NCBI RefSeq assembly: GCF_902498805.1
Contig: NZ_LR701580.1
Span: forward strand, 62,001-126,000
Source: Imperialibacter sp. EC-SDR9
GTDB taxonomy: Bacteria; Bacteroidota; Bacteroidia; Cytophagales; Cyclobacteriaceae
Direction of reading: 5' to 3'
Length of the DNA stretch: 64,000 nucleotides
Shown in pieces: positions 45,201-62,192 of the stretch. The translations under genes and the position numbers were made by a program. Numbering within the stretch: the first letter of the stretch is position 1; each line of letters starts with the position of its first letter. Under the pieces are notes generated by a model that worked only from the letters and a program-made list of their open reading frames with translations, did not search any database and had not been told where the DNA came from.

Positions 45201-45786
45201 CCTTGAGATTGGCCGGATTCTGGATGAGGGAGACCCACTTGCTGGCGTAACAGTCAACCTGCTGAATGCCGCAACCGGGGCTTATGTGACAGACGCAGAA
45301 ACTGATGAAAATGGCCTCTTCACCATGAGAGGGTTGGTTGTTGGTCAGTACATGCTAAGTGTGGAATTGGCAGGCGTGCCGATGGATTTCGGCTCGGCAG
45401 TCATCGACCTTGTTAATGAAACTGATCAAGTGGCCTTAACTGCCATTGTTACAGAAGACGGAACGGTGCTGGTGAGGATTGATGAAGTGGTGGCAGGGAT
45501 AAACGATCCGCTGGTTGTCGAAAAGCTGGTAGCCTACCCAATGCCGGTGCAAAATGAGCTGACCCTTGAAGTTTCAAATAAAAAGGCTGGCGACGTGAAG
45601 TTCGTCATCTTTAACCTGGCGGGGTTGCAGGTTTTTGAGTCTCAACTTTTGAAAACTGACAAGGGGAACCACCAATGGATCTTCGACGTCTCCCATCTGA
45701 AAAATGGCATGTATATGGGTAAGTTTGTAAGAGCGGAAACAAATGAGATCTTACCTTATCAGATAAAAGTCATGATTGCTAAATAG
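33289..45786 (+). CDS. Giant T9SS-secreted IPT/TIG-repeat surface protein
   Basis: 4165 residues. Signal peptide (MKAVIKIFVIAALFFSSMTAWA). Residues about 24-200 are a unique beta domain. Around 300-820 are five tandem units of 104-105 residues (EEKKFGQTQLVEWTNGDHKTSDYFY type, Kre9/KNH-like), the central three almost identical. A HYDIN-like beta domain lies about 1122-1235. Residues about 1330-3447 hold about 25 IPT/TIG repeats of about 85 residues (pattern I-x-S-F-x-P-x5-G-x3-T-I-x-G-x-x-F ... V-P-x-G-A-x-T-G). Four more Kre9-like repeats (P-N-G-G-E-T) cover about 3448-3840, then SdrD/CnaB-like beta domains (about 3850-4050, with AGVTVNLLNAATGAYV). The last 87 residues from KLVAYPMPVQNELTLEV are a type IX sorting domain (A type). 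It is expected to be moved across the outer membrane by T9SS and attached to the cell surface. Adhesion or matrix binding is inferred from the repeats. Confidence 0.92.
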   Translation: MKAVIKIFVIAALFFSSMTAWALGAENFSSPDLNAHNSTVVLFTGEGIVTGSATSSFNSGFDFSREETAGKEDDADYLVDFVFVSNEGVNLGNEGSTSLNSTGRRFLLIGTGDIESVTEVAERTNASPWVTVSWDWPDGTQGAPISVGQLWGVYTREGHYAVMEITGLPDGGFGTSFTFDYKYQPDGSRFFDGGGSSDPEVVVTSPTSASNWEIGTSQFITWESTNVDAASGSTGGVNLYYNTGSGDVVIAENVDSPDGENSYEWTVTGSAVSTAQVRVEADQDAGVFDLSDEFTISPQGDITILSPLGTEEKKFGETLTVSWKNNATYLNSNYFYLHYRVDGGSWYVITQGSGTSFNPSGNQMSYNWTLPDLGTNLDSDIEVRVWNNNQGYYGYGPAFRLYFESSLAIDAPTGAEEKKFGQTQLVEWTNGDHKTSDYFYLQYRVNGGSWYAITQGSGTSFSPEGNQMSYNWTLPDLGTNLDSDVEVRVWNNSRNVEDISNSFRLYFESSLAIDTPTGAEEKKFGQTQLVEWTNGDHKTSDYFYLQYRVDGGSWYAITQGSGTSFSPVGNQMSYNWTLPDLGTNLDSDIEVRVWNNSRNVEDISSSFRLYYESSLAIDTPTGAEEKKFGQTQLVEWTNGDHKTSDYFYLQYRVNGSSWYAITQGSGTSFSPVGNQMSYNWTLPDLGTNLDSDIEVRVWNNSRNVEDISSPFRLYYESSVSITSPLGGEYKAVGSPFSIVWENGDHKTSDYFYIYYRINGGSWLSVAQGSGTSFNPVGNVMTRAWTIPNPGTGVDANVQVRVWNNSRNKEDMSNSFVVCTNCEPVALSYPNGGESFFVGDEVSISWALSDAWNSSDNIVISYNAGAGDQTIFSGLYSAVPGNSYVWTVPDDVNSDVKVKITNTTTVESDESDSFFSIVPVPVRAVEFSSPSGDVVYLGGSVAVEFLPSEIAETDVLTFELSTNGGVSFPYTIQTAALNTLDNIAGSYFFDFVPTNPSFISESCIIRAKYGTTVLGASDIFYIASPAIYNLAVSYPQEGGNVLVYDLPVDITFTNDGLSAFDLYYVVPGQTQVLIEDAIDISADFDVTYSYTPDFVGENAKFRIVGGGQTIETETFDVVYPVVATDEGYDLVSLVDFGIRQASTSTVLSYLLNVTNVGVTVTSTSPDDFEISLSDESGFTNSLVIAPQAGIRSIPVYVKFAPAANNGALSQGVVRNRFVDSNLSNIDVNVSVQGRAATSGPSLVMFAPENAAELIANSVTTIRWGSTLVDLLGVEYSLDAGSTWFLIEDDLSPSFTEFDWLVPEVASQTNAVIRLVDQSGVAAIASAEVSILPAPSISSLTLINSGADLQIDGSGFSSIANHNQITFPGFPDINTYPTSASATQLVVEVPQGAVSGFIKVNVSGKGTAISPSQLVLSGITLTPDQGQVGNTIFINGSGIDFDAATSVSVTFTNGILGAVAATSVVVESADLLSVVVPTGVEATGPVEVDVDGTVYTSAQEFKIQSIDFTPKMAGIFETVTISGVNTSFLNNNTQVFINGLAATASVVSNNQISVTVPQGASTGKVTVSTNNGFFEASDDLTVEQHKITSLSATKITKGQSLVITGDNFTGASSVKINGQSITYQYYYFGNPYFTIDSDQQITVHISPSSIAGTGKVSVTKGGLEVESLEDVTVIPAITSLSTLQAAPGAQVTVYGSYFSGVDNTVYFNQNKPAAIVSQNTSAITVIVPQGAIDGSVTVVNNDVSQQGVSSASFDVVAAPVFASFSPLKATSGQVVTITGQNFQSPAPSSLLVNGNSVSFSVVDNSTMQFTVPTWIYGAGKIELTKGGVTVEGSQQFTVLPKITSFTLATGAVEGASVSISGTGFNPTASNNLVTFYNNKQATISNGSSTSLNVTVPVGAVTGKLRVTNQTILESGESASDFIVVPHAIISSFAPASGQVTKTEVTITGEHFSSPAVSAVRFSGTNATFNVVSDTEIKATVPSIFNNGAISVTRAGETVTSTNNFEIVPDITSLSASTLASGATLNVGGTFLNAVSQVKVGGTVATIISNNNYYGVSIAVPAMTPGNYKVTVTKNGLSDESDAELTVVAPHTITNFTQVAGLEQDVTITGTNFTSPAVTSVTLNGVAAAVQSATATQLVVKVPNSMNFAGQGKVAITRAGLTIQSTSDFYVRHGISTTFNTQNYVVGQQISVSGSNFYYPSVSQVKVNGVNATFSIAGDGSLSVTIPNAVGTGKVEVIKPSPVGTVESTTDITIVPRAVLSSFSPTIQAIGGTLTMTGQNFTSPAVSSVIINNTSVSSFTINSATEITATVPNISNFNAQGNVQITRAGLTQSLGTFTVKHTFSSLSASTVAAGASVTVNGTFLTSPSATLTLGGQAVSVSSINANSLTFTVPTNTTPGSHEIVLTRLGEQVSAGNITVLAPHTIASLDSDRKGKTESLTITGTNFDNTPQVYLNDVLVSSTVNSSSEISLTVPSNITGGTVSLKIARGGLTVSGFDGSDVDFSGTAQFYMKPSVTTDVAASTYVIGQTLTLSGSNFSAPGVNSVVLIDGGNETTVQSTVLSDNALQLVLTAQSGPALTATSYDVKLVKTVTSAEGNIEVTLADQLTLDDQGAITEITEASAPAGSFVTITGSGFTSPDVTSVKINSAFVGGGNFTVDDDNTITAKVPSGAAAYADGTSNNIELIRGGLTIFAMDEFVVEHKILGFLKSDFTGLTPATERVVEGQTIYVEGSHFESLGSISGMTVNDVAVTPIFVNGNRLQIVVPSGSQGVGKVAVTRRGILAESAQALIVSPAASITAIDPAARIAGGTITISGDHFSLPNVTTVTVNGAAATFDILNDDNIKATVPSNAAATGNVTVTRGGVTSNTIAFSVVPKIFSFTNTGLEGSIVTINGSHFGSTIGTNEVYFTGVADFVQATVSGANSNSLTVTVPVGAITGPIKVINTTSSQQVLSSANFNLLPSPGSFSINPASGPVASQFTISGVNMNGANEVKVNGVSANSFTVDPDGTSITVTVPSSATSGDVVIKKAGQSFTAGTFNVTPKVISFPALAVVGSQITINGKTFTGATSVTINSTAATIDQVSSDFVKVTTVAENVGIGNIVVTTPSGSGTSSSSTIEIKGQPSIASFSPVSGGSGDVVTISGANLSTVTFVKFNNTNASFTVSSDNELSAIVPSGASTGKISLGLGGITIQSVGNFSIVPKITTFTAAAITGAIIQINGTNFSGATQVAFAGATAVPFSVSANSLSVTVPAGAATGSLTVTTPSGTSAATANSFVVLPSISSGGFSPAKGAIGSTLTIAGTGFIAANASQNVVNFNGGVTATVSAATASSLTVLVPEGAITGALNVTSNGTTTGPFSAASFVIVPQIDAAGLSITSGYGGESLTITGKGFSSIAANNTVNFGGGVSALTFSATTTSLEVTVPAGFTTGALTVTTSGEASAASAQTFIRKSVVVTAPNGGETFNLGDSYAITWTEEGLDADSPLIISYSADGGVSYTEIVAGVVGDFSGTFDWTPEGDPTTAARIKVAVDGDKASDESDDDFTVRIKPLLTVVYPNGGETVRFGKPAQIEFTTEGLAGATSLLFEYSLDNGTTYQELGVGTIGELAGVYDLVMEEAYSDEALVRISTETGESVSDVSDEVFTSLPKPVLAFTSPTEGETLFIGESHDVTWIAQYLLDSDELELLYSADNGTTFSSKGTGLASELAGKMTVTIEGPVSQEAQFKLVNAGNDVSATSATFSVVPAPSIVVTSPESGEVLSGGVVKQVTWTTTSVDQSAELVVEYSADGGATYESLTSGTVAALNDSFDWSVPNAATANGFVRVRTADGTVSDTNDEALIIQAQVTSLSISGLLVTPGGSAVNVAEVLLYKANAAGGWDIVSTDELILAENHNTFSFVNLEPADYLIFAKPDRARFPNLRNTWFGNTLLVREAVTLSLSATRSDVDIEVVEVAPAPTGRGVVRGKLVNTSGNSRVSGLEIGRILDEGDPLAGVTVNLLNAATGAYVTDAETDENGLFTMRGLVVGQYMLSVELAGVPMDFGSAVIDLVNETDQVALTAIVTEDGTVLVRIDEVVAGINDPLVVEKLVAYPMPVQNELTLEVSNKKAGDVKFVIFNLAGLQVFESQLLKTDKGNHQWIFDVSHLKNGMYMGKFVRAETNEILPYQIKVMIAK
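34186..35748 (+). repeat. Five tandem repeats of about 312 bases in the giant adhesin gene
   Basis: Units begin near 34186, 34501, 34813, 35125 and 35437. The period is exactly 312 bases between the units at 34501, 34813 and 35125, and 315 for the first. Units two to four are almost identical at DNA level, with long shared stretches such as the one starting GAAAAGAAATTTGGGCAAAC. Units one and five are diverged. This points to recent duplication or gene conversion and makes copy-number change by recombination likely. Confidence 0.92.
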
Positions 45787-47901: not shown

Positions 47902-48450
47902 ATGATTTTTTACATTATCATGGGGGCGGCGGTCGTCCTCTTCCTCTACACCATCAGTGTTTACAATCGGCTTGTTAAGAACAAAAACATGGCTGAAGAG
48001 GCCTGGAGCGGTATCGACGTTCAGCTCAAGAAGCGCTACGACCTGATACCGGCCCTTGTCAATACTGTGAAAGGCTATGCCAGCCATGAAAAGGAGACAC
48101 TTGAAAACGTGATCAAATGGCGGAACATGGGCGTGTCGGCCAACACAGTAAAAGACCAGGAGAACGCAGAAGTGGGCCTAAGCGCCGTGCTGGGTCGCCT
48201 GATTGCTTTGTCCGAAAACTACCCGGATCTGAAAGCCAACGCTAATTTTCAAGACCTTCAAAAGCAGCTTTCCGAGATCGAAAATGCTATTCAGCTTTCT
48301 CGTCGATATTACAACGGTGTGGTGCGTGACTTGAATATCACTATCGAGTCTTTTCCAAGCAACCTTGTGGCTTCCTCTTTTGCTTTTAGCAAAAAAGACT
48401 ATTTCGAAATGGACAACGCCCAGCGGGAAGCTCCGGAGGTAAAATTCTGA
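47902..48450 (+). CDS. lemA: LemA family protein
   Basis: 182 residues. One N-terminal membrane helix (FYIIMGAAVVLFLYTISVYNRLV), then the LemA helical domain: NKNMAEEAWSGIDVQLKKRYDLIPALVNTVKGYASHEKETLENV, and later ENYPDLKANANFQDLQKQLSEIENAIQLSRRYYNGVVRDLN and FPSNLVASSF. This is the family pattern throughout. The role of LemA is not settled; it is commonly paired with a DUF2207 (YciQ-like) membrane protein, as here, three bases downstream. Confidence 0.94.
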   Translation: MIFYIIMGAAVVLFLYTISVYNRLVKNKNMAEEAWSGIDVQLKKRYDLIPALVNTVKGYASHEKETLENVIKWRNMGVSANTVKDQENAEVGLSAVLGRLIALSENYPDLKANANFQDLQKQLSEIENAIQLSRRYYNGVVRDLNITIESFPSNLVASSFAFSKKDYFEMDNAQREAPEVKF

Positions 48451-48453
48451 ACC

Positions 48454-50358
48454 ATGAAGAAGCTGGTAACGCTATTGCTGGGAGGCCTGTTCTTTTCGGG
48501 CCTTGCAGCACAGGAAAGCATCATTTCTCCTCATCAGGAGCATGTCATTTCTTATGAAAGTGACATCACGATAAACCAGGATGCTTCCATCGATGTAGTG
48601 GAAACGATTAAAGTTTATGCCAATGGTAATGAGATAAGGAGGGGCATTTACCGGGCGTACCCAACAGAATACACAGATAGCGACGGTTTTTCGATGTCTG
48701 TTGGCTTCGAAGTATTGGAAGTGCTGAAAGATGGGGAGAGAGCGCCTTACCACACTGAAGGCAGCAGAAATGGGGAAGTGGTTTATATAGGTGAGGAAAA
48801 TGTGTTTCTTGAGCCAGGCGAATATACTTACACCATTAAGTACCGGTCGGAAAATCAGTTGGGTTTTTTCGACGGTTATGATGAACTCTACTACAACATC
48901 AATGGTAATGGCTGGATTTTTCCTATGGGAAAAGTTTCAGCTACTATCCATTTGCCGCCTGATGCGGACATTACACAATACAGTGGCTATACCGGTTTCG
49001 AAGGCGACGATGGCAAGGACTTCGAGGTGACAGAGGAGGGCAATCAAATCACCTTTACCACGACCCGCCCGTTTCAGGCCTACGAGAACTTAACCATAGC
49101 TGTTGCCTGGCCAAAAGGAATAGTCACGGAGCCTGAACGGCCGCTGAAAGCTTTCTATATTTGGTTGGATCAATGGGGCATTTATATCAGCGCCGGCCTT
49201 CTTGGGCTGCTTTTGATTTATTGGCTAAGAGCGTGGAATCAGGTAGGGGTCGATCCTAAAAAGGGAGCCATCATTCCTTTATTTGAACCCCCAAATGGTT
49301 TTTCGCCCGCCGACTGTTATTATGTCTATCACGAAGGGTATGGACAGAAAGGACTTGCAGCCGACTTGGTCGATATGGGCGTCAAAGGCCTTTTAACAAT
49401 TGACTACGAGGACAAGAAGTTCAGCCTCCATAAGAACGACGAAAACCAAATCAAAGTGGCCTCTACTGCTCAAAGGGTGCTGTTTGATAAAATTTTCGGC
49501 ACATACCGAAAAAAGTTGGTGTTGGAGCAGGAAAACCATAGTACGATTAGCGCTGCCATAGCCGCCCACCAAAAAGGGGTTAAAAGTGAGCTTGACGGGG
49601 TCTATTTTAGAATGAACAGTTCATATATATGGCTGGCATTTCTGATCACAATTATCGGGATGCTTGCCATGGTGCCATGGGGAAGGTATGGAGCAGGCTT
49701 CCTTATATTTTGGCTTCCCCTGGTTAGCCTTCCTGTGATTGGCCTGGTAGCCGGAAGCATCAGCTCGGGAATGACTTTCGTTGAAAAACGATACGGCCTG
49801 GGAGCATTCATCGCTTTCATGATCTTTACTATCCCAGGTTTATTGGGTTACTTGTTTGTCATATATTATAACCTGGAGAGCGCACTCATGCTAGTCATCG
49901 CTCTCGGGTACATCATAGTGAATGGTATGTTCATCTACCTGATCAAAGCGCCGACTGTCGAGGGAAGGAAGATACTGGATCAGCTGGAGGGGTTACGATT
50001 GTTTATGAAAACAGCGGAAGAGGACAGGTTCAACCGGCTCCAAAGCAAAGGGTCAGCGTTGGAGCTTTTCGAAAAACTACTTCCTTTTTCCATTGCTCTT
50101 GGTGTGGAAAACGAGTGGGGTGAGCATTTTGAGTCTTACCTGAAAGCCACGTCGAACGATGGCATGGATTATCACCCAATTTGGTATCACAATGCCTCAA
50201 TGAGACACTTCAGTAGCAGCACATTTAGTAGCAGCATCAGCTCGAGTTTGACCTCCAACATTAGTAGCTCATCCACTGCTCCTGGTAGTAGTTCAGGCAG
50301 CGGGGGCGGTGGCTCATCGGGCGGCGGCGGTGGCGGCGGTGGTGGCGGTGGCTGGTAA
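48454..50358 (+). CDS. DUF2207 (YciQ-like) membrane protein
   Basis: 634 residues. Signal peptide (MKKLVTLLLGGLFFSGLAAQ). The DUF2207 extracytoplasmic beta domain (about 25-225) begins VISYESDITINQDASIDVVETIKV and includes GIYRAYPTEY and NGNGWIFPMGKVSATI. A TM helix follows near 245, then a cytoplasmic-type domain (KAFYIW, FSPADCYYV, GLAADLVDMGVKGLLTIDY), with more TM helices at about 390-495. The tail is Ser-rich and then a Gly run ending GGGW, as in other DUF2207 proteins. It is the standard partner of LemA; the function is unknown. Confidence 0.9.
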   Translation: MKKLVTLLLGGLFFSGLAAQESIISPHQEHVISYESDITINQDASIDVVETIKVYANGNEIRRGIYRAYPTEYTDSDGFSMSVGFEVLEVLKDGERAPYHTEGSRNGEVVYIGEENVFLEPGEYTYTIKYRSENQLGFFDGYDELYYNINGNGWIFPMGKVSATIHLPPDADITQYSGYTGFEGDDGKDFEVTEEGNQITFTTTRPFQAYENLTIAVAWPKGIVTEPERPLKAFYIWLDQWGIYISAGLLGLLLIYWLRAWNQVGVDPKKGAIIPLFEPPNGFSPADCYYVYHEGYGQKGLAADLVDMGVKGLLTIDYEDKKFSLHKNDENQIKVASTAQRVLFDKIFGTYRKKLVLEQENHSTISAAIAAHQKGVKSELDGVYFRMNSSYIWLAFLITIIGMLAMVPWGRYGAGFLIFWLPLVSLPVIGLVAGSISSGMTFVEKRYGLGAFIAFMIFTIPGLLGYLFVIYYNLESALMLVIALGYIIVNGMFIYLIKAPTVEGRKILDQLEGLRLFMKTAEEDRFNRLQSKGSALELFEKLLPFSIALGVENEWGEHFESYLKATSNDGMDYHPIWYHNASMRHFSSSTFSSSISSSLTSNISSSSTAPGSSSGSGGGGSSGGGGGGGGGGGW

Positions 50359-52897
<2,539 letters not shown>

Positions 52898-52952
52898 TCT
52901 GGTGTGGGGTTATTGGTTAAGGAGTTAGCCGATAATAAAATTTATGCAGACG

Positions 52953-52987
52953 TCAGGATTGTCTAAGGTTGATGATCCTGATTTTTT
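52953..52987 (+). terminator. Candidate terminator after icd
   Basis: TCAGGAT pairs with ATCCTGA across a 15-base loop and is followed by six T. It lies 55 bases after the icd stop. Confidence 0.55.
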
Positions 52988-53121
52988 GTTTCTGAGCCCC
53001 ATGGATGATTTGTATTCAGAGAACAGAACGCATTCCTAATTGTTATATAAAAAACCGTCCTATGTTGTCGAGTTTTTTATTTTGTCAACCTTTCGTATGT
53101 TGACGCATACTACCGATTGAG

Positions 53122-53754
53122 ATGATTGAAAAGGAACTTCCGTTATTCCCTCTCAACCTCGTAGCCTATCCCGGCGAGGAGCTGAACCTGCACATTTTTG
53201 AGCCAAGGTACAGGCAGCTTATTACGGAGTGTGTCAATACCAACACTACCTTTGGTGTTCCGTCTTACGTTCTCAGCAAGATCGAGTATGGCACCGAAGT
53301 AAAAATTGTGAAGCTTGAAAAAACCTACGATGATGGCCGAATGGACGTTCGAACCGTCGGCATGGGTATTTTCAAAGTACTCGATTTTGTCAGCCCATGG
53401 CCAGGCAAACTGTATTCCGGTGGCACGGTCGAAATGGTTAAAACCATGCCGGATGGCGATGTAGTTTTGCAGGAAGAGCTATTTAAGTTGGTCAACGACC
53501 TGTTTGAGTGGCTTGGCATGGAGGGGCTCGTGAAATTTGATCAAAAAATGCTCACCTACGCCATCGCTCACAAGATCGGCCTGAGCAAAGAGCAGGAATA
53601 CGAGCTGCTGAAGACCACCTCTGAAAAGAAGAGGCAGGAGTTCCTCATTAATTACTTGAAGCTAACAATCCCCATTGTTAAGCAAATGGAGCAGGCCAAA
53701 GACCGTATTCGCCAGAACGGTCATTTCAAACACCTGGATGCACTTGATTTTTAG
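53122..53754 (+). CDS. Lon-protease substrate-binding-domain protein
   Basis: 210 residues, soluble. The N-terminal 110 residues match the Lon N-terminal (LAN) domain: ELPLFPLNLVAYPGEELNLHIFEPRYRQLITECV, then TTFGVPSYV and YDDGRMDVRTVGMGIFKVLDF. The C-terminal part is helical (KMLTYAIAHKIGLSKEQEYELLKTTSEKKRQEFLINYL), also as in the family. No ATPase or protease domain is present, so it is the stand-alone form, of unknown role. Upstream is a small GTCAAC/GTTGAC inverted repeat (53084-53104). A REP-like hairpin lies 40 bases downstream. Confidence 0.85.
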   Translation: MIEKELPLFPLNLVAYPGEELNLHIFEPRYRQLITECVNTNTTFGVPSYVLSKIEYGTEVKIVKLEKTYDDGRMDVRTVGMGIFKVLDFVSPWPGKLYSGGTVEMVKTMPDGDVVLQEELFKLVNDLFEWLGMEGLVKFDQKMLTYAIAHKIGLSKEQEYELLKTTSEKKRQEFLINYLKLTIPIVKQMEQAKDRIRQNGHFKHLDALDF

Positions 53755-53793
53755 GTGGTTCTTCATTCAAAGAATATCAGTATAAGAAACGTC

Positions 53794-53813
53794 ATGCCTG
53801 CGAAAGCAGGCAT
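53794..53813. repeat. REP-like palindrome with GAAA loop
   Basis: ATGCCTGC-GAAA-GCAGGCAT is a perfect 8-bp stem with a GNRA tetraloop, within GTC...ATCT context. The shape CGTCATxCCxGCGAAAGCxGGxATC is common in many bacterial genomes as a dispersed intergenic palindrome. No second copy is seen in this window. No T tract follows. Confidence 0.55.
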
Positions 53814-53943
53814 CTCTGTTAATTGCCTACAACACATCAGCGTGAATGACTCATCTTTCGAACGACGATGTTCCAACCAGTTCAATCCATTAATTTAGTG
53901 CATCATTGGTCTACATCAGTTACTTTAGCATAAAAAGACCTCT

Positions 53944-54456
53944 ATGCCCGAGCTTTCAGGATTTGGCACCATACTATTATTTATCATAGGAGGCTTCGTC
54001 TTCGTGCTGCTTTCCGTAGGCTTTGCTATGCTTGTCAGGCCCAACAGACCCAATATCGAAAAGCTCACCACCTACGAATGTGGTGAGAATCCATCGACAA
54101 GCGCCTGGGGCAAATTCAATGTCCGATTCTACATCGTAGCACTTATTTTTCTCCTGTTCGAAGTAGAACTGGTCTTTCTTTTCCCATGGGCAACCGTTTT
54201 TGGGCAAAAAGAACTCGTCGACGCTACCGGTGGGCTATGGGGCTGGTTTGCACTTGGAGAAATGACGGTCTTCGTATTAATACTGGCGCTTGGGCTTGTG
54301 TTTGCCTGGGCCAAAGGTTATCTGGAGTGGGAGAGGCCAGTTGTGGAAGCCACCCGGATGGATTCAAAAGTGCCGGATAAGCTGTATGAGGCAGTGAGTA
54401 AAAAAGTAAAAAGTATTCGGGCAGAAGTACCTGTAGTAAAAGAGGAGGTTGTATAA
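53944..54456 (+). CDS. nuoA: NADH-quinone oxidoreductase subunit A
   Basis: 170 residues. Three TM helices: about 8-30, 62-85 and 96-122. The NuoA loop [41 protein letters not shown] contains the conserved Cys and the Glu/Asp-rich membrane segment of the family. The C-terminal tail is about 45 residues longer than E. coli-type NuoA and rich in Lys/Glu/Val. It is a small membrane subunit of complex I near the quinone channel. The stop codon shares one base with the start of nuoB. Confidence 0.94.
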
Positions 54457-54992
54457 TGGGACTACTTGATCAGCAACTAGGGCAAGGCGGAGTGATTATC
54501 ACTAGAGTGGACGACTTGATCAACTGGGCCCGGCTTTCGTCCATTTGGCCCATGGGTTTTGGACTGGCCTGCTGTGCCATCGAAATGATGGGGTCCATGG
54601 CCTCCAATTACGACCTCGACAGGCTGGGTGTGTTTCCTCGCCCTTCTCCAAGGCAGTCCGATGTGATGATAGTGGCAGGGACAGTTACCTTCAAAATGGC
54701 CGATAGGGTTCGCAGACTTTATGAGCAAATGGCCGAACCGCGCTATGTCATCTCCATGGGTTCATGCTCCAACTGTGGAGGCCCCTACTGGGAACACGGC
54801 TACCATGTGGTGAAAGGGGTCGATCGCATCATTCCAGTGGACGTTTACGTGCCCGGGTGCCCCCCAAGGCCAGAAGCATTGATTGGGGGCATATTGAAAC
54901 TTCAGGAAAAAATTAGAGGTGAGAGCCTGATGGCTCCTGCGGCACTTGAAAGACTGATGGCAAAAAAAGCTGAAAAAGCAACGCAGGCTTAA
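54456..54992 (+). CDS. nuoB: NADH-quinone oxidoreductase subunit B
   Basis: 178 residues. It carries the N2 iron-sulfur cluster of complex I next to the quinone site. The Cys ligands appear in [10 protein letters not shown] (two adjacent Cys), [16 protein letters not shown] and [20 protein letters not shown]. The stretch [24 protein letters not shown] is also standard. It starts inside the nuoA stop (TAATG). The next complex I gene, nuoC, is 1.8 kb away because a two-gene cassette is placed between them. Confidence 0.97.
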
Positions 54993-55029
54993 TCCATACC
55001 CTCCAGGCGGCTCTAAGCTCCCGGAGCGG

Positions 55030-55060
55030 TTGTCAGGTATTACCAGAAATCCTATATTTT
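55030..55060 (+). promoter_or_regulatory. Candidate promoter for the ATPase/TOPRIM cassette
   Basis: TTG (55030-55032), 20 bases, then TATATTTT (55053-55060), one base short of TAnnTTTG. It lies about 85 bases before the ATPase ATG, in the 152-base spacer after nuoB. The same TTG-N20-TATATTT geometry occurs at 58603-58633. It would let the cassette be expressed apart from nuoAB. The rest of the spacer holds nothing clear. Confidence 0.35.
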
Positions 55061-55144
55061 CGTAGATTAGCGAAAGGTACTGCCATTTGGTGCCCACAGC
55101 GTTAGCTGGTGGCAACAACTGGCTCGCCAATCAATTAGAAAAAA

Positions 55145-56173
55145 ATGGCTGGAGAAAATCATTTAACCTATTTCAAAGTCGAGAACTTCAAGCGCTTCAA
55201 AGAGCTTGAGGTGAAAGACATTGGGCAGTTCAATTTGGTGCTGGGGGATAATAATGTAGGGAAGACGAGTTTTTTGGAGGCTTTGTTGTTCGAGTCTTGG
55301 TATTCTGATTGGTCATTTCTCAATTTTAAATGGGCGCTAATCCAAAAAAATGCAGATGCTTCTTACAAAGGCGACGTAATGTATGCCTACCTAAATAGAG
55401 AACAGGTTGGAAAATATAGTGAAGAACTGATAAAATATAGGTTTGAGTTTGCGTCGGGAGACTTTGATGACAGGAAAGGCAAAGATTTCCAAATAAACGT
55501 GAGCGGCGGGGGATTTGTAGTTGAGCCGCCGATTACGAGCCCGTTATTACAATATGAAAGTGATGCCTCTAAAAGGCTAGAACTATCTCCAGATTTCAAA
55601 GCTCCTTTGATTCCTTTTTCTTTAGCCTATAAAGATGATCTCGTTTATCAATATTCGAAGGACATTCAGGAAGATAAGTATTCTAAGAATGCCTTGATTA
55701 ATGGGCTAAAAATAATAGTCCCAAGCATCAATGATATCGAAGTCAGCTTGAAACAAAAAGATTCGCCTTCTTTGCTTATTAAAAGGAGCGATTATAGATT
55801 TTCAATGCCGCTTGTTTCTTTCGGAGACGGTGTAAACAAGCTTTTTCGGATTTTATGTGACATCATTTGGTTTCGTGGGAAACGTCTAATGATCGACGAA
55901 ATCGACACAGGCATCCACTACAGCCGGATGAAGGATTTCTGGGAGACAATACTCCTGGCAGCAAAAGAAAACGATGTGCAGCTTTTTGCTTCGACGCATA
56001 ATCTTGAGTGTATTAAATATTTTAAAGAAGCCTTGGAAGAATTATCTGATTTGCAAGATAAGGCTAGGACTATAACGCTTGTTGAACATCTTCAGACTAA
56101 AGATATTTTGGCTCACACCAATCATTTTGATGTGCTGGAATCCGAACTCGCTTTGGGTAATGAGGTAAGGTGA
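55145..56173 (+). CDS. OLD/AAA-family ATPase of a two-gene cassette
   Basis: 342 residues, soluble. The SMC/ABC-like ATPase head reads LTYFKVENFKRFKELEVKDI, Walker A GDNNVGKTS (34-42), a signature-like SFGDGVNKL (225-233), Walker B RLMIDEID (247-254), and the H-loop STHN (283-286). The insert between Walker A and signature is about 180 residues, with no coiled coil. This is the AAA_15/AAA_21 (OLD-like) type; unlike OLD, the TOPRIM part is not fused but is encoded one base downstream. Base use is AT-rich: 19 of 60 bases are G or C at 55381-55440, against 28 of 60 in a nuoD stretch (57541-57600). It lies within the complex I operon, suggesting insertion. By analogy with PARIS, AbiL and Gabija, an anti-phage or DNA-metabolism role is possible but not shown. 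Confidence 0.82.
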   Translation: MAGENHLTYFKVENFKRFKELEVKDIGQFNLVLGDNNVGKTSFLEALLFESWYSDWSFLNFKWALIQKNADASYKGDVMYAYLNREQVGKYSEELIKYRFEFASGDFDDRKGKDFQINVSGGGFVVEPPITSPLLQYESDASKRLELSPDFKAPLIPFSLAYKDDLVYQYSKDIQEDKYSKNALINGLKIIVPSINDIEVSLKQKDSPSLLIKRSDYRFSMPLVSFGDGVNKLFRILCDIIWFRGKRLMIDEIDTGIHYSRMKDFWETILLAAKENDVQLFASTHNLECIKYFKEALEELSDLQDKARTITLVEHLQTKDILAHTNHFDVLESELALGNEVR

Positions 56174-56174
56174 A

Positions 56175-56774
56175 ATGAAAGACACTTACATTTTTGTTGA
56201 GGGGGATACCGACGAGAAGTTTCTTCAAGCTATTTTCCTGAGGCACTATTCTGATGGGGATCGAGTACAGTTTATCTCACTTGGAGGCAATTATAAAAGG
56301 CTGGAAGAGAAAAAGAGGGTTGAGCAATTAAAAGACGGACGTAGGAACCTTATTATCGTAGACGCAGACGTCAACAATTTCAACCAGGTTAAATCCGGCG
56401 TTCAGGTACTGCTTGACCGGATTGCAGAAGAGCAAGAACGTTTAAATATACCTTTTCAGGCAGATTCATTTCTATTTCCAAATGATATCTTGGACGGCAA
56501 TCTGGAATCACTGGTGAGAAACTTAGCTCCATTGAATAAAAGTGACATATGGAATTGTATTGATGGTTACTCAAAATGTGTGGAGCAAATTCAAACTCCT
56601 GGCTTTCGAGCAATTGACGCTAAAACAAAGATATATATCTACGTAAATGCACATGATCACGTAAAATGGAATGCTCAGGAGTGGTTGCTTGATACCGAGA
56701 TTTGGAATCTTGAATCGAATAGCCTCGATAATTTATTAGCCTTTTTGGACAAGTATTTTACAAGAAATCAATGA
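56175..56774 (+). CDS. DUF3226-like TOPRIM protein of the ATPase cassette
   Basis: 199 residues, soluble. The TOPRIM acidic groups are visible: VEGDTDEKFL (Glu9, Asp13) on the first strand and NLIIVDADVNNF (Asp63, Asp65) on the third. The family-specific part is FLFPNDILDGNLESLV (about 99-114) and the end TEIWNLESNSLDNLLAFLDKYF, as I know from DUF3226 proteins. TOPRIM domains act as metal-dependent nucleases or in DNA and RNA cleavage. The gene starts one base after the ATPase stop. Its own TGA overlaps the ATG of nuoC as ATGA, so nuoC translation is likely coupled to it. AT-rich like the ATPase gene. An alternative relation is DUF4435 (AriB of PARIS); the motif order favours DUF3226. Confidence 0.75.
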   Translation: MKDTYIFVEGDTDEKFLQAIFLRHYSDGDRVQFISLGGNYKRLEEKKRVEQLKDGRRNLIIVDADVNNFNQVKSGVQVLLDRIAEEQERLNIPFQADSFLFPNDILDGNLESLVRNLAPLNKSDIWNCIDGYSKCVEQIQTPGFRAIDAKTKIYIYVNAHDHVKWNAQEWLLDTEIWNLESNSLDNLLAFLDKYFTRNQ

Positions 56775-57271
56775 CCCACACCGACATTAAATCTCGTATC
56801 GAAGCTGAATTTGGGGCCTCATCCGTGCTGGATACCATCGAAAACGCCACACCAAAGGGCCTCGTTGTGTCAATTGACAATTTGCAGGACGTATGCCTTT
56901 TCCTGCGTGACAACGAGCAAACCTATTTTGACTCTCTCTCCTGCCTGACAGCTATCGATAATGGCGTGGAGGCCAATACAATCGAGGTGAATTATAACCT
57001 TTATTCCATTCCTTACAACTTTCATTTACTTCTTCGAGTAATTGTCGCCAGAAACCAGGAGGAGGCGGACCTGCCAGTTATCCCCACAGTCAGCGATGTT
57101 TGGAAAACTGCCGAGTGGCATGAGCGGGAAGCTTTTGACCTTGTCGGAATTACTTTCGAAGGTCATCCGGATTTGCGTCGCATTCTTTTGCCAACCGACT
57201 GGCAGGGCCATCCGCTACGAAAGGATTATTCGACCCAGGAATACTACCACGGAATGAAAGTTGACTACTAA
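56771..57271 (+). CDS. nuoC: NADH-quinone oxidoreductase subunit C
   Basis: 166 residues. It is the 30-kDa type subunit of the complex I peripheral arm. Family marks: YFDSLSCLTAIDNG, EVNYNLYSIPYNFHLLLRVIV, and the signature VSDVWKTAEWHEREAFDLVGITFEGHPDLRRILLPTDWQGHPLRKDY. The ATG is inside the stop of the TOPRIM gene (ATGA), an unusual coupling for this gene. It is a separate gene, not a nuoCD fusion. nuoD follows 39 bases later. Confidence 0.95.
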   Translation: MTHTDIKSRIEAEFGASSVLDTIENATPKGLVVSIDNLQDVCLFLRDNEQTYFDSLSCLTAIDNGVEANTIEVNYNLYSIPYNFHLLLRVIVARNQEEADLPVIPTVSDVWKTAEWHEREAFDLVGITFEGHPDLRRILLPTDWQGHPLRKDYSTQEYYHGMKVDY

Positions 57272-57310
57272 TGAAAATCAGAACACGATTAACTAATAAC
57301 AGGTAACCAC

Positions 57311-58525
57311 TTGAGTACCGTTCAATACACATACGACCCCAAGCACCTCGAAGCCTCAGAGCCTACGAAATACAAACCGGAAGACCTGACGGAAGAGCAA
57401 ATGCTCATCAACATCGGCCCTCAGCACCCGTCCACTCATGGTGTTTTGCGTTTTGAGGTAATTACCGATGGCGAGGTAGTGGTCGACGTTGTGCCTCACC
57501 TGGGCTATTTGCACCGCTGCTTCGAAAAGCACGCTGAGAGCATGCCTTTCAACCAAGTCATTCCTTATGTAGACAGGCTCGATTACGTGGGGGCAATGAA
57601 TAACGAGCATGCCTATGTAATGGGAGTGGAGCGCATGCTGGGCATTGAAAACGATATTCCAAAAAGAACTGAATACATCCGGGTACTTGTGGCAGAGCTC
57701 AACCGTCTGGCCTCTCACTTTGTGGCCATTGGCACCTACGGACTGGATATTGGTGCAGTCACCCCCTTCCTCTGGATGATGCGTGACCGGGAACACATCC
57801 TGCGCATGCTCGAGTGGGTGAGCGGTGCTCGCATGCTTTATAATTACATCTGGATAGGCGGCCTGTTCTACGACCTGCCTGTAGGTTTCGAAGAGCGTTG
57901 CAAGGAATTTGTCACCTACTTGAAGCCGAAGCTGGTGGAAACGAGAGACCTGTTGCTGAGCAATAAAATCTACGTTGAGCGTACCGCCAATGTAGGGGTG
58001 CTGTCCCGTGACCTGGCCATCAATTACGGAGTGACCGGGCCGATGCTAAGGGCTTCCGGGCTTCGCTTTGACCTACGCCGGATAGATGGCTATAGCGTAT
58101 ACCCGGAGCTTGATTTTGAAATTCCGGTTGGAGAAGGCACCGTCGGAACGGTAGGCGACTGCTGGGATCGGACTTGGGTGCGCTACAGGGAATGTGAGGA
58201 GTCTGTCAAGATTATTGAACAGTGTCTGGAAGTGCTTACAAAAGAGCACAAGCGCACCCGTGATTATGATCCACGAGCCATGGTTCCGAAAAAGATCAGG
58301 CCCCAGGCGCAGGACTTCTATGTTCGTGCAGAAAACCCAAAGGGAGAGCTTGGCTTCTATTTCCGTGCCGATGGCCGGAATGACGTGCCCGTTCGCTGCA
58401 AGGCTCGCTCTTGTTGTTTTTCCAACTTGTCAGTCGTTCCTGAAATATCGAGAGGCGTCCTTATTGCCGACTTCATTGCCATAGTTGGCTCAGTAGATTT
58501 TGTGCTGGGAGAGGTTGATAGGTGA
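57311..58525 (+). CDS. nuoD: NADH-quinone oxidoreductase subunit D
   Basis: 404 residues from a TTG start. The first ATG in frame is 30 codons later at 57401, just before INIGPQHPSTHGVLRFEV, and would remove a conserved-length leader. The 49-kDa subunit shapes the quinone pocket (GPQHPSTHG, then HLGYLHRCFEKHAE, YVDRLDYVGAMNNE, LASHFVAIGTYGLDIGAVTPFLW, REHILRMLEWVSGARMLYNYIWIGG). The end SCCFSNLSVVPEISRG and FIAIVGSVDFVLGEVDR are standard. No nuoE or later genes follow; an unrelated gene begins 130 bases on. Confidence 0.95.
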   Translation: MSTVQYTYDPKHLEASEPTKYKPEDLTEEQMLINIGPQHPSTHGVLRFEVITDGEVVVDVVPHLGYLHRCFEKHAESMPFNQVIPYVDRLDYVGAMNNEHAYVMGVERMLGIENDIPKRTEYIRVLVAELNRLASHFVAIGTYGLDIGAVTPFLWMMRDREHILRMLEWVSGARMLYNYIWIGGLFYDLPVGFEERCKEFVTYLKPKLVETRDLLLSNKIYVERTANVGVLSRDLAINYGVTGPMLRASGLRFDLRRIDGYSVYPELDFEIPVGEGTVGTVGDCWDRTWVRYRECEESVKIIEQCLEVLTKEHKRTRDYDPRAMVPKKIRPQAQDFYVRAENPKGELGFYFRADGRNDVPVRCKARSCCFSNLSVVPEISRGVLIADFIAIVGSVDFVLGEVDR

Positions 58526-58602
58526 CTTTTTAGACCGTTTGCCAGTCATAATAGCTGCAAAACCTATTTTGCTAAATATTTTACTAATTAAAGCTAAATA
58601 TG

Positions 58603-58633
58603 TTGACATTATAATTGTCACTTGCTATATTTG
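58603..58633 (+). promoter_or_regulatory. Candidate promoter and operator of the 2H phosphoesterase-dinB unit
   Basis: TTG at 58603-58605, 20 bases, then TATATTTG (58626-58633), an exact TAnnTTTG match. The dyad TGACA-N7-TGTCA (58604-58620) overlaps the upstream element, as a repressor site would. The ATG is 21 bases after the box. SOS-type control is an inference from the downstream dinB. Confidence 0.5.
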
Positions 58634-58640
58634 ATAGTAT

Positions 58641-58650
58641 AAAAGGAGGT
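58641..58650 (+). promoter_or_regulatory. Strong Shine-Dalgarno site
   Basis: AAAAGGAGGT ends four bases before the ATG at 58655. Most genes in this window lack such a site, as usual for Bacteroidota, so this near-perfect one stands out and fixes the start. Confidence 0.6.
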
Positions 58651-58654
58651 TATT

Positions 58655-59287
58655 ATGGTGACATACAAAATTCAGATATATCCTTCCCAGTCCATAACGG
58701 ACTATGTGAGGGATCGTAAAACACAAATACTTGACGAGTTTGGGCAGTACAAGTTTTACAATTCCCATCCTCACGTTAGTTTGTTTTCTTTTCAGGCAGA
58801 CATCTCTCACGAACATCTTATCACTAAGGCATTAAGGGAGACGTCTGTTTTTGTCGACTCATTTGACATCTCACTCAACGGATTTGCCTACCTGAAGAGC
58901 AACAGAGCCATTTACCTCAAGATCGGAAATGGGTCGCAGGTGGCCCGGATCAATCAGCTATTTTATCAGAAATTTAGAGAGTCTGCCAAAAGCTTCGGTG
59001 TTAGGGTGATCGATCCTGTGTTTGCTAAATATCCGCACATGATTATTGGAAGTGAGTTTGAGCAGAAGGCCTTTTTAAAAATACACCAAACGTTCGTTGA
59101 CCAAAAATATAAGGAGACCTTTCAGGTTGATCAGGTGCGCTTACTCAGAGACATAGGCAATGGCAAAAATGACTCGGTAGAAGCCATTGCTCTATTAGAG
59201 AAAGCTGCTATCAGTTTGAAGTGGCCGGAAGAGAAAGTTTGGATGGTAAATGAGCCGCAGATGTCTTTGTTTTCGCATGTAGCCTAA
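58655..59287 (+). CDS. 2H phosphoesterase (2'-5' RNA ligase-like) with clamp-binding-like tail
   Basis: 210 residues, soluble. The two half-motifs of the 2H superfamily are HVS (40-42, in SHPHVSLFSF) and HMI (128-130, in KYPHMIIGSEF), a looser second motif than the usual HxT. The family includes tRNA 2'-5' ligases, cyclic phosphodiesterases and anti-toxin-like enzymes; the substrate is unknown. The last 15 residues include QMSLF (202-206), the shape of a sliding-clamp binding peptide (Q-L/M-S-L-F). The next gene is DNA polymerase IV, 56 bases downstream on the same strand, which carries QINLF itself. A strong ribosome site and a candidate regulated promoter precede the gene. Confidence 0.72.
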   Translation: MVTYKIQIYPSQSITDYVRDRKTQILDEFGQYKFYNSHPHVSLFSFQADISHEHLITKALRETSVFVDSFDISLNGFAYLKSNRAIYLKIGNGSQVARINQLFYQKFRESAKSFGVRVIDPVFAKYPHMIIGSEFEQKAFLKIHQTFVDQKYKETFQVDQVRLLRDIGNGKNDSVEAIALLEKAAISLKWPEEKVWMVNEPQMSLFSHVA

Positions 59288-59343
59288 CGAGCACATCTAT
59301 TTTTTAGTCGGCTCTTTTCCCGAAGTCTTTCACCCTTAACTAT

Positions 59344-60555
59344 ATGGCTACTATGTGGTCACCTGCAACTGATCATCGCTCTATTATCCATATGGATTTG
59401 GATAGCTTCTTCGTATCTGTGGAGCGGCTACAAAACGACTATTTCGTTGGGAAGCCACTCCTGATTGGTGGCGGTAGCGACCGTGGAGTTGTGGCTTCTT
59501 GTAGCTACGAAGCCAGGGCATTTGGTGTACACTCTGCCATGCCCATGCGACTTGCGAAACAGTTGTGCCCCGAAGCTATCGTTGTTCGTGGCGACATGGA
59601 GAGGTATTCTCAGTACTCGCAGATGGTTACCGAGATCGTGCATGAAGCCGTCCCTTCCTACGAGAAATCATCTATCGATGAGTTTTATGTTGATTTAACA
59701 GGCATGGAAAAGTTCTTCGGCTGCATGAAGCTGGCCACCGAACTAAAAGCACGGATCAGAAAAGAAACCGGTTTGCCTATTTCCTTTGGGCTTTCTGAAA
59801 ATAAGACTGTCTCAAAGGTAGCCACCAACGAGTCGAAGCCCGATGGACAGAGGCAAATAGCCTATGGCACCGAGAAGGGTTTTCTTTCTCCTCTGACAGT
59901 AGATAAAATTCCGATGGTGGGTGAGAAGACGGCCTACACGTTGCGAAAAATGGGTGTGCAGAAAATCCATACCCTGCAGCAAGTGCCAGTGGAAATGCTC
60001 GCTGCGGTTTTTGGAAAAATGGGCAGGGTTATTTCCGAGAAAGCGAACGGCATTGACCGTACGCCCATTGTGCCTTATTCAGAGAGAAAGTCTATTTCCA
60101 CTGAGAATACCTTCGAGCAAGACACCATCGACGTAAAAAAACTGGAGTCGATACTTGTTGCCATGACTGAGCAGCTAGCGTTTAAGCTTCGGAAGGAACA
60201 GCAACTGACCTCTTGTGTCACAGTCAAAATTCGCTACTCTGATTTTGATACCCATACCTTGCAGCGGAAAATGCCCTACACCTCGGCAGACCACGTGCTG
60301 ATTCCTATGGTGAAGGAGCTTTTCAAAAAAGCCTATAGCCGCAGGATGCTCATTCGCCTTATTGGGGTTCGCTTCAGCGGCTTGGTGCATGGCAATTACC
60401 AGATCAACCTTTTTGAAGACACCGAAGAGGGCATCAAGCTCTACCAGGCAATGGACAAGCTTCGTCAAAGGCATGGGGATAAGGCCGTTGTTCGTGCTGT
60501 AGGCATGGGCGTATCTAGGAGGAGTTTCAATCCATTCAATGGTGCTGCTGCGTGA
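59344..60555 (+). CDS. dinB: DNA polymerase IV (Y family)
   Basis: 403 residues. Translesion polymerase. Catalytic residues: IIHMDLDSFFVSVE (Asp at 18 and 20), YEARAFGVHSAMPMRLAKQLCP, and SIDEFYVDLTG (Asp112, Glu113). The helix-hairpin-helix (VDKIPMVGEKTAYTLRKMGV) and little-finger domain follow. QINLF at 353-357 is the expected sliding-clamp motif, and about 45 residues follow it with the tail DKLRQRHGDKAVVRA found in this subgroup. The gene is 56 bases after the 2H phosphoesterase gene and probably shares its promoter. The two may be induced together by DNA damage; this is inferred, not shown. Confidence 0.95.
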   Translation: MATMWSPATDHRSIIHMDLDSFFVSVERLQNDYFVGKPLLIGGGSDRGVVASCSYEARAFGVHSAMPMRLAKQLCPEAIVVRGDMERYSQYSQMVTEIVHEAVPSYEKSSIDEFYVDLTGMEKFFGCMKLATELKARIRKETGLPISFGLSENKTVSKVATNESKPDGQRQIAYGTEKGFLSPLTVDKIPMVGEKTAYTLRKMGVQKIHTLQQVPVEMLAAVFGKMGRVISEKANGIDRTPIVPYSERKSISTENTFEQDTIDVKKLESILVAMTEQLAFKLRKEQQLTSCVTVKIRYSDFDTHTLQRKMPYTSADHVLIPMVKELFKKAYSRRMLIRLIGVRFSGLVHGNYQINLFEDTEEGIKLYQAMDKLRQRHGDKAVVRAVGMGVSRRSFNPFNGAAA

Positions 60556-60664
60556 TCAGCACCACCATGCAGGCGCTTTCAAGGTGATATATGCCTTTCC
60601 TGTAATTGCGGTAACTTGCTAGTAGTCAAGACCGTAACGGTAATAGGACTAATCTCAATTACTT

Positions 60665-61156
60665 ATGCTAACAAGAAAGAGCTTTATTAAGGGAGTCGTT
60701 GCAAGTTCAGCGCTACTAATTCCCGGAGTATCGGCCATTGGCGGCACGGCGCAGAACAGGCCAACACCTATCGATAGTGCGCTTGTGAAAGATTTCGTTT
60801 CTAAAGGCCATACCGACCTGGACGGGACCAAACAGATGTTGGCGGAAATACCGACCATACTCAACGCTACCTGGGATTGGGGGAATGGCGACTACGAAAC
60901 GGCATTAGGTGGGGCTTCCCACATGGGGAGGCCTGACATCGCTCAGTACTTAATAGACAAAGGAGCAAGACTGGATATCTTCACGGCAGCCATGATGGGA
61001 AAGTTAGATTTAGTGAAGTTGATTGTGGCTACCTATCCAGCCTCACTCACCAGCGCCGGGCCTCATGGCATTACTTTGATGAAACATGCTGTGATGGGAG
61101 GAGAGGCGGCAGTAGAAGTGGTCGAATACCTTAAGTCTCAGGGAATAGCGAAATAG
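60665..61156 (+). CDS. Exported ankyrin-repeat protein
   Basis: 163 residues. The N-terminus LTRKSFIKGVVASSALLIPGVSA looks like a signal peptide; RKSFIKG resembles a Tat motif with Lys in place of the second Arg. Three ankyrin-like units follow: ETALGGASHMGRPDIAQYLIDKGA (about 78-101), IFTAAMMGKLDLVKLIVATYP, and ITLMKHAVMGGEAAVEVVEYLKSQG. Ankyrin units bind proteins; no enzyme domain is present. It has its own spacer and no clear partner gene. Confidence 0.75.
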   Translation: MLTRKSFIKGVVASSALLIPGVSAIGGTAQNRPTPIDSALVKDFVSKGHTDLDGTKQMLAEIPTILNATWDWGNGDYETALGGASHMGRPDIAQYLIDKGARLDIFTAAMMGKLDLVKLIVATYPASLTSAGPHGITLMKHAVMGGEAAVEVVEYLKSQGIAK

Positions 61157-61197
61157 GAGGACAAGTTAGAGGCCTTCGTTGTTACAAAGGCGTATGA

Positions 61198-61518
61198 TTA
61201 TTGCCGAGGCCTTTTCCCGCTAAATCTTCTAAACATTCTTTTTTCGAACTCCCAAAAGAAATTGAACTGCCCAAAAATGAAGCCGTAAAAAAGCAGGATG
61301 AGGTTGTAGATAGGTAGTATCAAGATGTAGTAGAGAATAGTCAGTAGCGTGTAGTATTCCTCTGATGCGTGGATAAGACGAAAGAGGGGCTTTTTCAGAA
61401 AAAGAACTGTAAAGCCAGTGCATGCAAATACAATCAACACGATTGCTACCTGCCAGCCGCTTTTCAGGTTCCATCTGTCCTGTAGTCGGGTTAACCAGCT
61501 TTCTTTTTCTTTACTCAT
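61198..61518 (-). CDS. Small membrane protein (DUF6787-like)
   Basis: 106 residues from ATG 61518, which overlaps the TGA of the RluA-type gene upstream (ATGA). An ATG five codons earlier is possible. It has an N-terminal amphipathic part (ESWLTRLQDRWNLKSGWQVAIVLIVFACTGFTVLFLKKPLF) with one TM helix, and a second hydrophobic helix pair (TILYYILILPIYNLILLFYGFIFGQF). The last part is basic (KRMFRRFSGKR). It resembles the small Bacteroidota proteins annotated as DUF6787; I am not certain of that name. Function unknown. Co-translated with the pseudouridine synthase. Confidence 0.6.
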   Translation of the reverse strand: MSKEKESWLTRLQDRWNLKSGWQVAIVLIVFACTGFTVLFLKKPLFRLIHASEEYYTLLTILYYILILPIYNLILLFYGFIFGQFNFFWEFEKRMFRRFSGKRPRQ

Positions 61519-62192
61519 GAAACTGCCTGCCAATAACTTTTGATAGGTAACGGAGCGTCCACTGTCATTGTTTCTTTTGTGACCGGGTGAGCAAATATCA
61601 ACGTTTTTGCGTGTAAGTTGATACAGGAATCCTCGTTCGGAAACTGCTGTCCATATTTACGATCGCCTTTAATGGGGCAACCCATCTTGCTCAGCTGAGC
61701 CCTTATCTGGTGAGGTCGGCCAGTCACCGGCCTTACTTCAAGCAGACAATAGTCGTGGAATACCTTCAGAACTTTGAACGACAACTCGGAGCGCTGCGCA
61801 CTGCCTTTTTCCTTGTTGTAAGCTGTTACGGTATTTTTTTTTGAGTCTTTTTCAAGCCAGTGAACCAGCGTAGCTTCCTCTTTGGGAGGCCTCCTGGTAA
61901 CTACTGCCCAGTAAATCTTCTCAATGGTTCTTTCCCTGAAAGCTTTGGTCATACGCTCCAGGGCCTTTGACGTTTTGGTGAGCATTACCACTCCGCTTAC
62001 CGGCCGGTCTATCCTATGCACCAGCCCCATAAATACTGCTCCTGGCTTGTTGTATTTATCCTTAACATAGTCCTTTGCATAGTCGACAAGCGACTGGTCG
62101 CCAGTTTCATCACCTTGCACCAACATGCCCCCGGGTTTGTTCACGATGAGCAGGTGGTTATCTTCGAACAGAATTAGTTTTCTAAAATCCAC
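61515..62192 (-). CDS. RluA-family pseudouridine synthase
   Basis: 225 residues from a GTG start, which gives the usual beginning (MDFRKLILFEDNHLLIVNKPGGML). The catalytic Asp62 is in HRIDRPVSGVVML. Other family stretches: FRERTIEKIYWAVV, ELSFKVLKVFHDYCLLEVRPVTGRPHQIRAQL, GCPIKGDRKYG, and INLHAKTLIFAHPVTKE. There is no S4 domain, so it is a short form of the RluA/RluC/RluD/TruC group that modifies rRNA or tRNA; the target site cannot be read. The start is only 12 bases from the divergent nitrilase-like gene. Confidence 0.92.
   Translation of the reverse strand: MDFRKLILFEDNHLLIVNKPGGMLVQGDETGDQSLVDYAKDYVKDKYNKPGAVFMGLVHRIDRPVSGVVMLTKTSKALERMTKAFRERTIEKIYWAVVTRRPPKEEATLVHWLEKDSKKNTVTAYNKEKGSAQRSELSFKVLKVFHDYCLLEVRPVTGRPHQIRAQLSKMGCPIKGDRKYGQQFPNEDSCINLHAKTLIFAHPVTKETMTVDAPLPIKSYWQAVS

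Follow-up and report, generated by a model that had tools for sequence, protein, structure and literature searches.

A probable defence gene pair between nuoB and nuoC in Imperialibacter sp. EC-SDR9 and its turnover at operon gene boundaries

The window analysed here is a stretch of 64,000 nucleotides of Imperialibacter sp. EC-SDR9 in which two genes, P1 for an ATPase and P2 for a TOPRIM protein, lie between nuoB and nuoC, a junction written below as nuoB|C (Table 1). ORF coordinates and Pfam matches (AAA_15/AAA_21 for P1, DUF3226 for P2) bear out a preliminary description of this DNA that had placed such a pair there. P1 and P2 are separated by 1 nt and the TGA of P2 shares bases with the ATG of nuoC, forming the ATGA overlap reported before. 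The placement inside a complex I operon holds as far as nuoB and nuoC are concerned, but the operon is here a short nuoA-D cluster, the sole nuoH match being located on a different contig.

Table 1. Features of the P1-P2 locus; positions are those of the window.
Feature	Position	Strand	Evidence
nuoA	53944-54456	+	complex I family match, Pfam
nuoB, host gene upstream of the cassette	54456-54992	+	Pfam Oxidored_q6, 3.8e-28
Spacer nuoB-P1, 152 nt	54993-55144	+	ORF coordinates
30-nt repeat in the nuoB-P1 spacer	55088-55117	+	10 places listed in the genome, its own included
P1, SMC/OLD-type ATPase, AbiLi/PDC-M38A-like, 342 aa	55145-56173	+	Pfam, PADLOC, motifs, predicted fold
P2, DUF3226 TOPRIM protein, PDC-M38B/AbiLii-like, 199 aa	56175-56774	+	Pfam, PADLOC, motifs, predicted fold
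ATGA, P2 stop overlapping nuoC start	56771-56774	+	ORF coordinates
nuoC, host gene downstream of the cassette	56771-57271	+	Pfam Complex1_30kDa, 5.2e-43
nuoD, final gene of the nuoA-D cluster	57311-58525	+	Pfam Complex1_49kDa, 6.4e-87

Both genes are AT-rich against their neighbours, as noted earlier (about 39% against 48-53% G+C; in particular, P1 39.2% and P2 38.7% against nuoB 52.9%, nuoC 47.9%, and nuoD 52.1%). AT-richness was considered as a sign of recent arrival and dropped, since P1 and P2 lie about 3-17 points below their nuo neighbours in all nine copies checked. The spacer ahead of P1 measures 152 nt in the window against 12-30 nt in five other nuoB|C cassettes, and could carry a promoter of its own, so that the window copy could differ in expression. 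The candidate promoter proposed in the preliminary description proved weak: the site, TTGTCA-17-TATATT at 55030-55058, is one of 11 such sites in the stretch against 6.7 +/- 2.6 in shuffles, and a consensus of this type fits Bacteroidota poorly. The 30-nt element in the same spacer is a dispersed repeat, with nine further places listed in the genome (88-97% identical). Elsewhere, the window holds a giant surface or secreted protein of 4165 aa with 17 TIG/IPT stretches and a Por secretion tail (33289-45786), and two adjacent tRNA-Arg genes with anticodons ccg and cct (5090-5162 and 5205-5277).

P1 matches AAA_15 (1.4e-16) and AAA_21 (6e-15) in Pfam and, among the PADLOC models, AbiLi (1.1e-42), PDC-M38A (1.2e-41), and AriA (5e-20). 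The three motifs of an ABC/SMC-type ATPase are present, namely Walker A (GDNNVGKT), Walker B (LMIDEID), and the H-loop (THN), and residues G34, K40, D251, E252, and H285 are invariant in 43 of 43 aligned P1 sequences. Structure prediction, which the preliminary description had suggested for both proteins, assigns P1 a Septu/SMC-head fold: in the AlphaFold2 model (pLDDT 86), built like that of P2 from alignments of the loci collected in this analysis, the nearest Foldseek matches are Septu PtuA and SMC heads. At the sequence level, the PDB returned mainly P-loop stretches together with one unrelated-looking match, RGS5. NCBIfam gave no family over cut-off for either protein, and the relatives tried also match the AbiL and/or PDC-M38 models of PADLOC.

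The DUF3226 match of P2 extends over almost the entire protein (7.6e-14, 52.4 bits, cut-off 27). P2 of the other five nuoB|C copies belongs to DUF3226 as well (five of five); no Pfam family was matched by P2 of another locus, L147. The PADLOC matches of the window's P2, judged without the thresholds of that database, are weak: PDC-M38B at 3.5e-6 (24.9 bits) and AbiLii at 0.012. Glu9, Asp13, Asp63, and Asp65 are invariant in 37 of 37 aligned sequences. The top five PDB matches of the AlphaFold2 model (pLDDT 88) are the C-terminal regions of OLD proteins of Burkholderia and Xanthomonas, with E values of 9e-4 to 4e-3 and modest TM-scores of 0.38-0.48 (Foldseek ranks 1-5); no sequence relative was found in the PDB at E up to 1. 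The predicted OLD-like TOPRIM region and the conserved E and DxD (E9, D63, and D65 in 37/37) together identify P2 as a TOPRIM protein.

One of the known systems close to the pair is AbiL, a lactococcal, plasmid-borne system that likewise consists of a separate ATPase and a small second gene; P1 matches its ATPase strongly, but P2 matches AbiLii only marginally in the window and at 2.8e-7 (L075) to 5e-4 in five relatives. Both genes of the window match PDC-M38, which is a PADLOC candidate only, with the difference that the relative L133 has no M38B match at E 0.01. PARIS, a Class 4 OLD system that is triggered by a phage anti-restriction protein and cleaves tRNA, shares the split ATPase and TOPRIM and the AriA match of P1, but P2 is a DUF3226 protein and falls short of DUF4435, which we take to be the AriB-type family of PARIS (16.8 bits against a cut-off of 27); no PARIS structure was present among the 50 PDB matches listed for the P1 or P2 model. 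The separate ATPase and TOPRIM genes of PARIS are described in PMC10568477 and PMC12796447, and tRNA cleavage by AriB in PMC12409363. In Gabija the ATPase and TOPRIM are fused and accompanied by the UvrD-like GajB, whereas here they are separate genes followed by nuoC; in Septu the partner is the HNH nuclease PtuB, here a DUF3226/TOPRIM protein. The defence-like identity proposed earlier is supported by the AbiLi and PDC-M38A matches (about 1e-42 and 1e-41), by the OLD TOPRIM fold of P2, and by the patchy presence of the pair.

That the pair was inserted, as first supposed, is indicated by a congener, G001, whose nuoB and nuoC are 99 and 86% identical to those of the window and whose nuoB-nuoC gap is 32 nt without a cassette; the comparison of gene order in relatives, proposed in the preliminary description, thus supports insertion. 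In a sample of the family, this nuoB is found in 143 of 295 genomes and a P1-like match at 1e-12 in 12 of 295. Five of the 12 are close (7e-59 or better), belong to five genera, and are all situated at nuoB|C with the ATGA overlap, which amounts to 5 of the 143 nuoB-bearing genomes; the remaining seven are away from nuoB by position or in genomes without a nuoB match. Four of these copies have P1 and P2 100% identical to those of named loci, from a CG12 Cytophagales MAG, Fulvivirga imtechensis, Marinoscillum furvescens, and a Flammeovirgaceae MAG; a sixth copy, L087, belongs to a Cyclobacteriaceae MAG in which the P2 stop lies 2 nt ahead of the nuoC start. Since five other genomes also carry a related pair between these two genes, the order nuoB-P1-P2-nuoC is not due to chance. 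The congeners examined of the five genera (n = 1, 5, 4, 14, and 16) are all empty at this junction. Housekeeping-like conservation at nuoB|C, named beforehand as a result that would refute the preliminary interpretation, was not observed: recurrence is patchy, and among five of the six copies (all except L087) identity is 38-48% for P1 and 29-42% for P2.

The form of the empty junctions was surveyed in 83 loci, 11 more of the initial 94 having been dropped because nuoB was out of reach; 60 junctions had been chosen by hand, congeners of occupied genomes first. Of the 83 junctions, 5 are occupied and 78 cassette-free. In the latter, a -4 overlap of the nuoB stop with the nuoC start is found in 39 of 78 and a gap of at most 32 nt in 72 of 78. 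ATGA is thus the commonest form of the empty junction, and the coupling belongs to the site. The six other cassette-free junctions hold 78-813 nt of other sequence (813, 406, 365, and 338 nt in L016, L009, L208, and L212). On a host tree of nuoC+nuoD with 78 of 95 sequences (16 were without nuoC or nuoD of the set length and L021 duplicates L088), six changes are required to account for the six occupied genomes, and shuffles do not require more; together with the empty congeners, this indicates that nuoB|C has been filled in a scattered fashion.

A filled genome (G161) and its empty near-sister (G125) give a closer view of one such event. Their DNA homology breaks off 11 nt upstream of the nuoC start in G125 and is regained within the gene, 120 nt from its start in G125 and 132 nt in G161, and the two NuoC proteins match at 10 of 34 aligned positions in residues 1-40 and at 115 of 120 in residues 41-160. 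This is what recombination inside nuoC would leave and may be read as a sign of it, in a single clear case that makes no rule: so sharply replaced a nuoC start is found in one of five occupied/empty pairs, the nuoC N-termini of the other four also varying faster, less sharply.

Turnover in place was observed at a second junction, nuoE|F, where seven of ten copies were compared. In L131 and L137, nuoE and nuoF are 98 and 99% identical, P1 72% and P2 30%; in L127 and L130 the values are 94 and 99% for the host genes, 66% for P1 and 65% for P2. P2 is 85% identical between L131 and L136, and L137 and L153 share P1 at 68% and P2 at 90%; in these four loci, P2 types were swapped independently of P1 between related nuo operons. 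Judged by these identities, the cassette at a given junction varies faster than its flanks, as does P2 independently of P1, and such rapid turnover would be more in keeping with defence genes than with a complex I partner.

In the P1 tree (80 of 81 P1 sequences, L144 being too short), several sites form a clade of their own and others do not: the ten nuoE|F rows group with support 98 and the two gatB rows with 100, while those at M42 are scattered. The tree of P1+P2 (25 of 27 rows; L089 and L131 had no P2 picked by the rule) places the six nuoB|C cassettes together, joined by just three relatives from outside nuo operons (support 100/99). The AU test does not reject one nuoB|C clade at the 5% level (p 0.053 for P1+P2 and 0.076 for P1); a quick tree had split the copies into two groups, and nuoB|C monophyly, neither shown nor rejected by the AU test, was therefore not used as proof of one insertion. 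This near-grouping would suit an old vertical inheritance, in which one ancestral nuoB|C insertion drifted fast and was lost independently very many times with no transfer, and defence genes are often lost. Such a history needs 25 losses on the midpoint-rooted host tree against 6 gains on its 78 rows, does not account for P1 and P2 of nuoE|F that diverge far more than their 98-99% identical flanks, and is at odds with the replaced nuoC start of G161; we hold it unlikely, while granting it more weight than the other alternatives.

Related pairs also have other genomic homes. Eighty loci of named genomes, the best of 125 found with two peptide patterns, include 5 at nuoB|C, 10 at nuoE|F (Flavobacterium, Chryseobacterium, and one Flavobacteriaceae MAG) and 1 at nuoF|G (a Chitinophagales MAG), that is, 16 in complex I operons; nuoE, nuoF, and nuoG were assigned by Pfam in L131, L127, and L133, as were gatB and the epimerase in the loci tried. 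Others occupy non-respiratory junctions, downstream of a methionine synthase (metH) piece or of ugd, or upstream of gatB or an M42 peptidase gene, and further loci lie elsewhere. In 17 of the 80 loci, P1 is fused to an N-terminal part of about 1200 aa, mostly with a separate P2 adjacent; the one such part scanned (L142:2356-7065) has weak AAA_22 and UvrD_C matches. In a Flavobacterium-like genus, delimited by nuoF identity to L131, nuoF is present in 193 of 219 genomes and the nuoE|F-type P1 in 5 of 219, without exception at the nuoE|F junction. In G680, this junction is empty and reads nuoE-TAA, one base, ATG-nuoF, and the cassette of L131 lies between the same two codons with 3 and 2 added bases, flank identity to G680 (89-91%) reaching up to the codons. 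The nuoE-P1 gap is 2-9 nt in nine of the ten nuoE|F copies, that of L148 not being cleanly called.

The 63 loci with a stand-alone P1 make up 32 site clusters, roughly defined by BLAST of the nearest neighbours, and 3 of the 32, one being the seed, are in complex I operons; enrichment in complex I was set aside as strong evidence. For two of the 31 other clusters, random insertion with an assumed 13 junctions in 2800-4000 gives a Poisson probability of about 0.005-0.009. The locus set was seeded with nuo-located queries, and the recurrence in complex I operons is only suggestive. The complex I events may be just two, since P1 of nuoF|G is nearest to that of nuoE|F in one tree (support 80), not in the other. 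At the level of the order, 27 of 390 genomes matched, and when nuoA-D were sought in the short flanks of 30 order-level loci, only those of the window and G008 had them; a class-level match sits at ugd.

These data bear on a second alternative, a regulatory or quality-control partner of complex I that reacts to the state of respiration or restricts nuo mRNA and whose position in the operon serves that function. The occupation of three junctions (nuoB|C, nuoE|F, and nuoF|G) by 16 of the best 80 of 125 loci and the low Poisson chance would agree with it, but 138 of 143 family genomes have no P1-like match beside nuoB, at least 188 of the 193 Flavobacterium-like genomes with nuoF lack a close P1, relatives occupy unrelated operons, nuoA-D are rare in the short flanks of the order-level loci, a class-level match lies at ugd, and the nuo-seeded set may reflect two complex I events only. 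We consider such a partner very unlikely. The earlier proposal that placement could tie the pair to respiration is not supported, considering the equal overlap at 39 of 78 cassette-free junctions and the relatives placed tightly beside metH, ugd, gatB, and M42-peptidase genes; a functional tie is possible, and the evidence favours hitch-hiking in the host operon.

Tight spacing is a feature of the wider group. A codirectional gene follows within 10 nt in 29 of 58 stand-alone-P1 loci against 85 of 405 neighbouring pairs of those loci (Fisher p 7e-6), and -4 overlaps occur in 11 of 58 against 13 of 405 (p 3e-5); these p values are too small because the loci share descent, and the gene caller takes the longest ORF, so that overlaps are miscounted both for cassettes and for background pairs. 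Operon residence is not universal, since a codirectional downstream gene (43/58) is hardly more frequent than in the background (285/405); upstream the count is 55 of 61.

As for the route of arrival, Pfam gave no integrase, transposase, or phage family in the five genes of the cassette region and ten more window genes (47902-62192), and P1 had no match at E 1e-6 among 50,697 phage records; integration by a mobile element was accordingly discarded. With no phage match and plasmid matches limited to 7 distant ones (24-26% identity), mobility of the cassette can only be inferred. Defence genes between fixed core genes are also found in cDHS1/2 of Pseudomonas aeruginosa, which differ in being large, diverse islands near tRNA/tmRNA genes and not one gene pair inside an operon; for these, exchange through transduction and homologous recombination in conserved flanks is proposed in PMC10250203. 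OLD-type ATPase/TOPRIM proteins can also be non-defensive, as in the archaeal Cran1 (PMC12796447), and the pair might be a genome-maintenance or cell-cycle enzyme of this kind parked by chance in the operon. Cran1, according to the same source, shows conservation throughout Sulfolobales and resisted deletion, whereas the window pair is rare and patchy, which makes this reading extremely improbable.

Altogether, the pair is probably a two-gene anti-phage cassette of abortive-infection type, similar to AbiL/PDC-M38, expressed from the operon and turning over at gene boundaries by recombination in the flanks; a defence function in itself is likely, judging from family, motifs, and predicted folds. 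By analogy with PARIS, the SMC-head ATPase P1 would sense infection and hold or activate P2, and the TOPRIM nuclease P2 would then cut nucleic acid, stopping the cell or the phage. On the simplest reading, both genes would be expressed from the nuo transcript, since most complex I copies are too tightly packed to leave much space, if any, for a separate promoter. At the junction in the window, the stop of P2 would replace that of nuoB in the usual overlap with the nuoC start, so that nuoC would stay translated. Cassettes of one clade repeatedly return to, or are exchanged at, the same gene boundary. The likeliest route would be homologous recombination within the conserved nuo genes on either side, not the action of an integrase. 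Both in the window and in Flavobacterium, the limits of the insert coincide with the codons, and recombination would account for this only with a donor of like arrangement.

No description of an ATPase-TOPRIM pair between nuo genes, and none of DUF3226 or PDC-M38, was found in the literature searched, whose scope left out most subscription papers and bioRxiv. The preliminary view of the arrangement as undescribed stands to that extent; split ATPase/TOPRIM systems as such are known from PARIS. Within the scope of these searches, both the type of system and the type of exchange are already known; the novelty is the location within respiratory operons, which recurs at one and the same junction and also at different ones.

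The cassette is real and represents more than a single insertion, being patchy, recurrent, and fast-changing at fixed operon boundaries. A bolder and distinctly doubtful extension would regard it as one of a class niched at gene boundaries in essential operons, codon-bounded, free of integrases and expressed only from the host operon, that refills the same junctions many times and swaps its nuclease in place, with complex I favoured since loss of the message would disable respiration in the manner of an addiction system or a trip-wire. Searches for defence genes usually turn to islands, prophages, and plasmids; the present pair is embedded in a core respiratory operon, and one genome pair has 98-99% identical flanks around a replaced effector. 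If this is general, searches based on islands or mobile elements would overlook systems of this kind, and the exchange of cassettes at a single junction would offer a natural allelic series for studying ATPase sensing and TOPRIM cutting.
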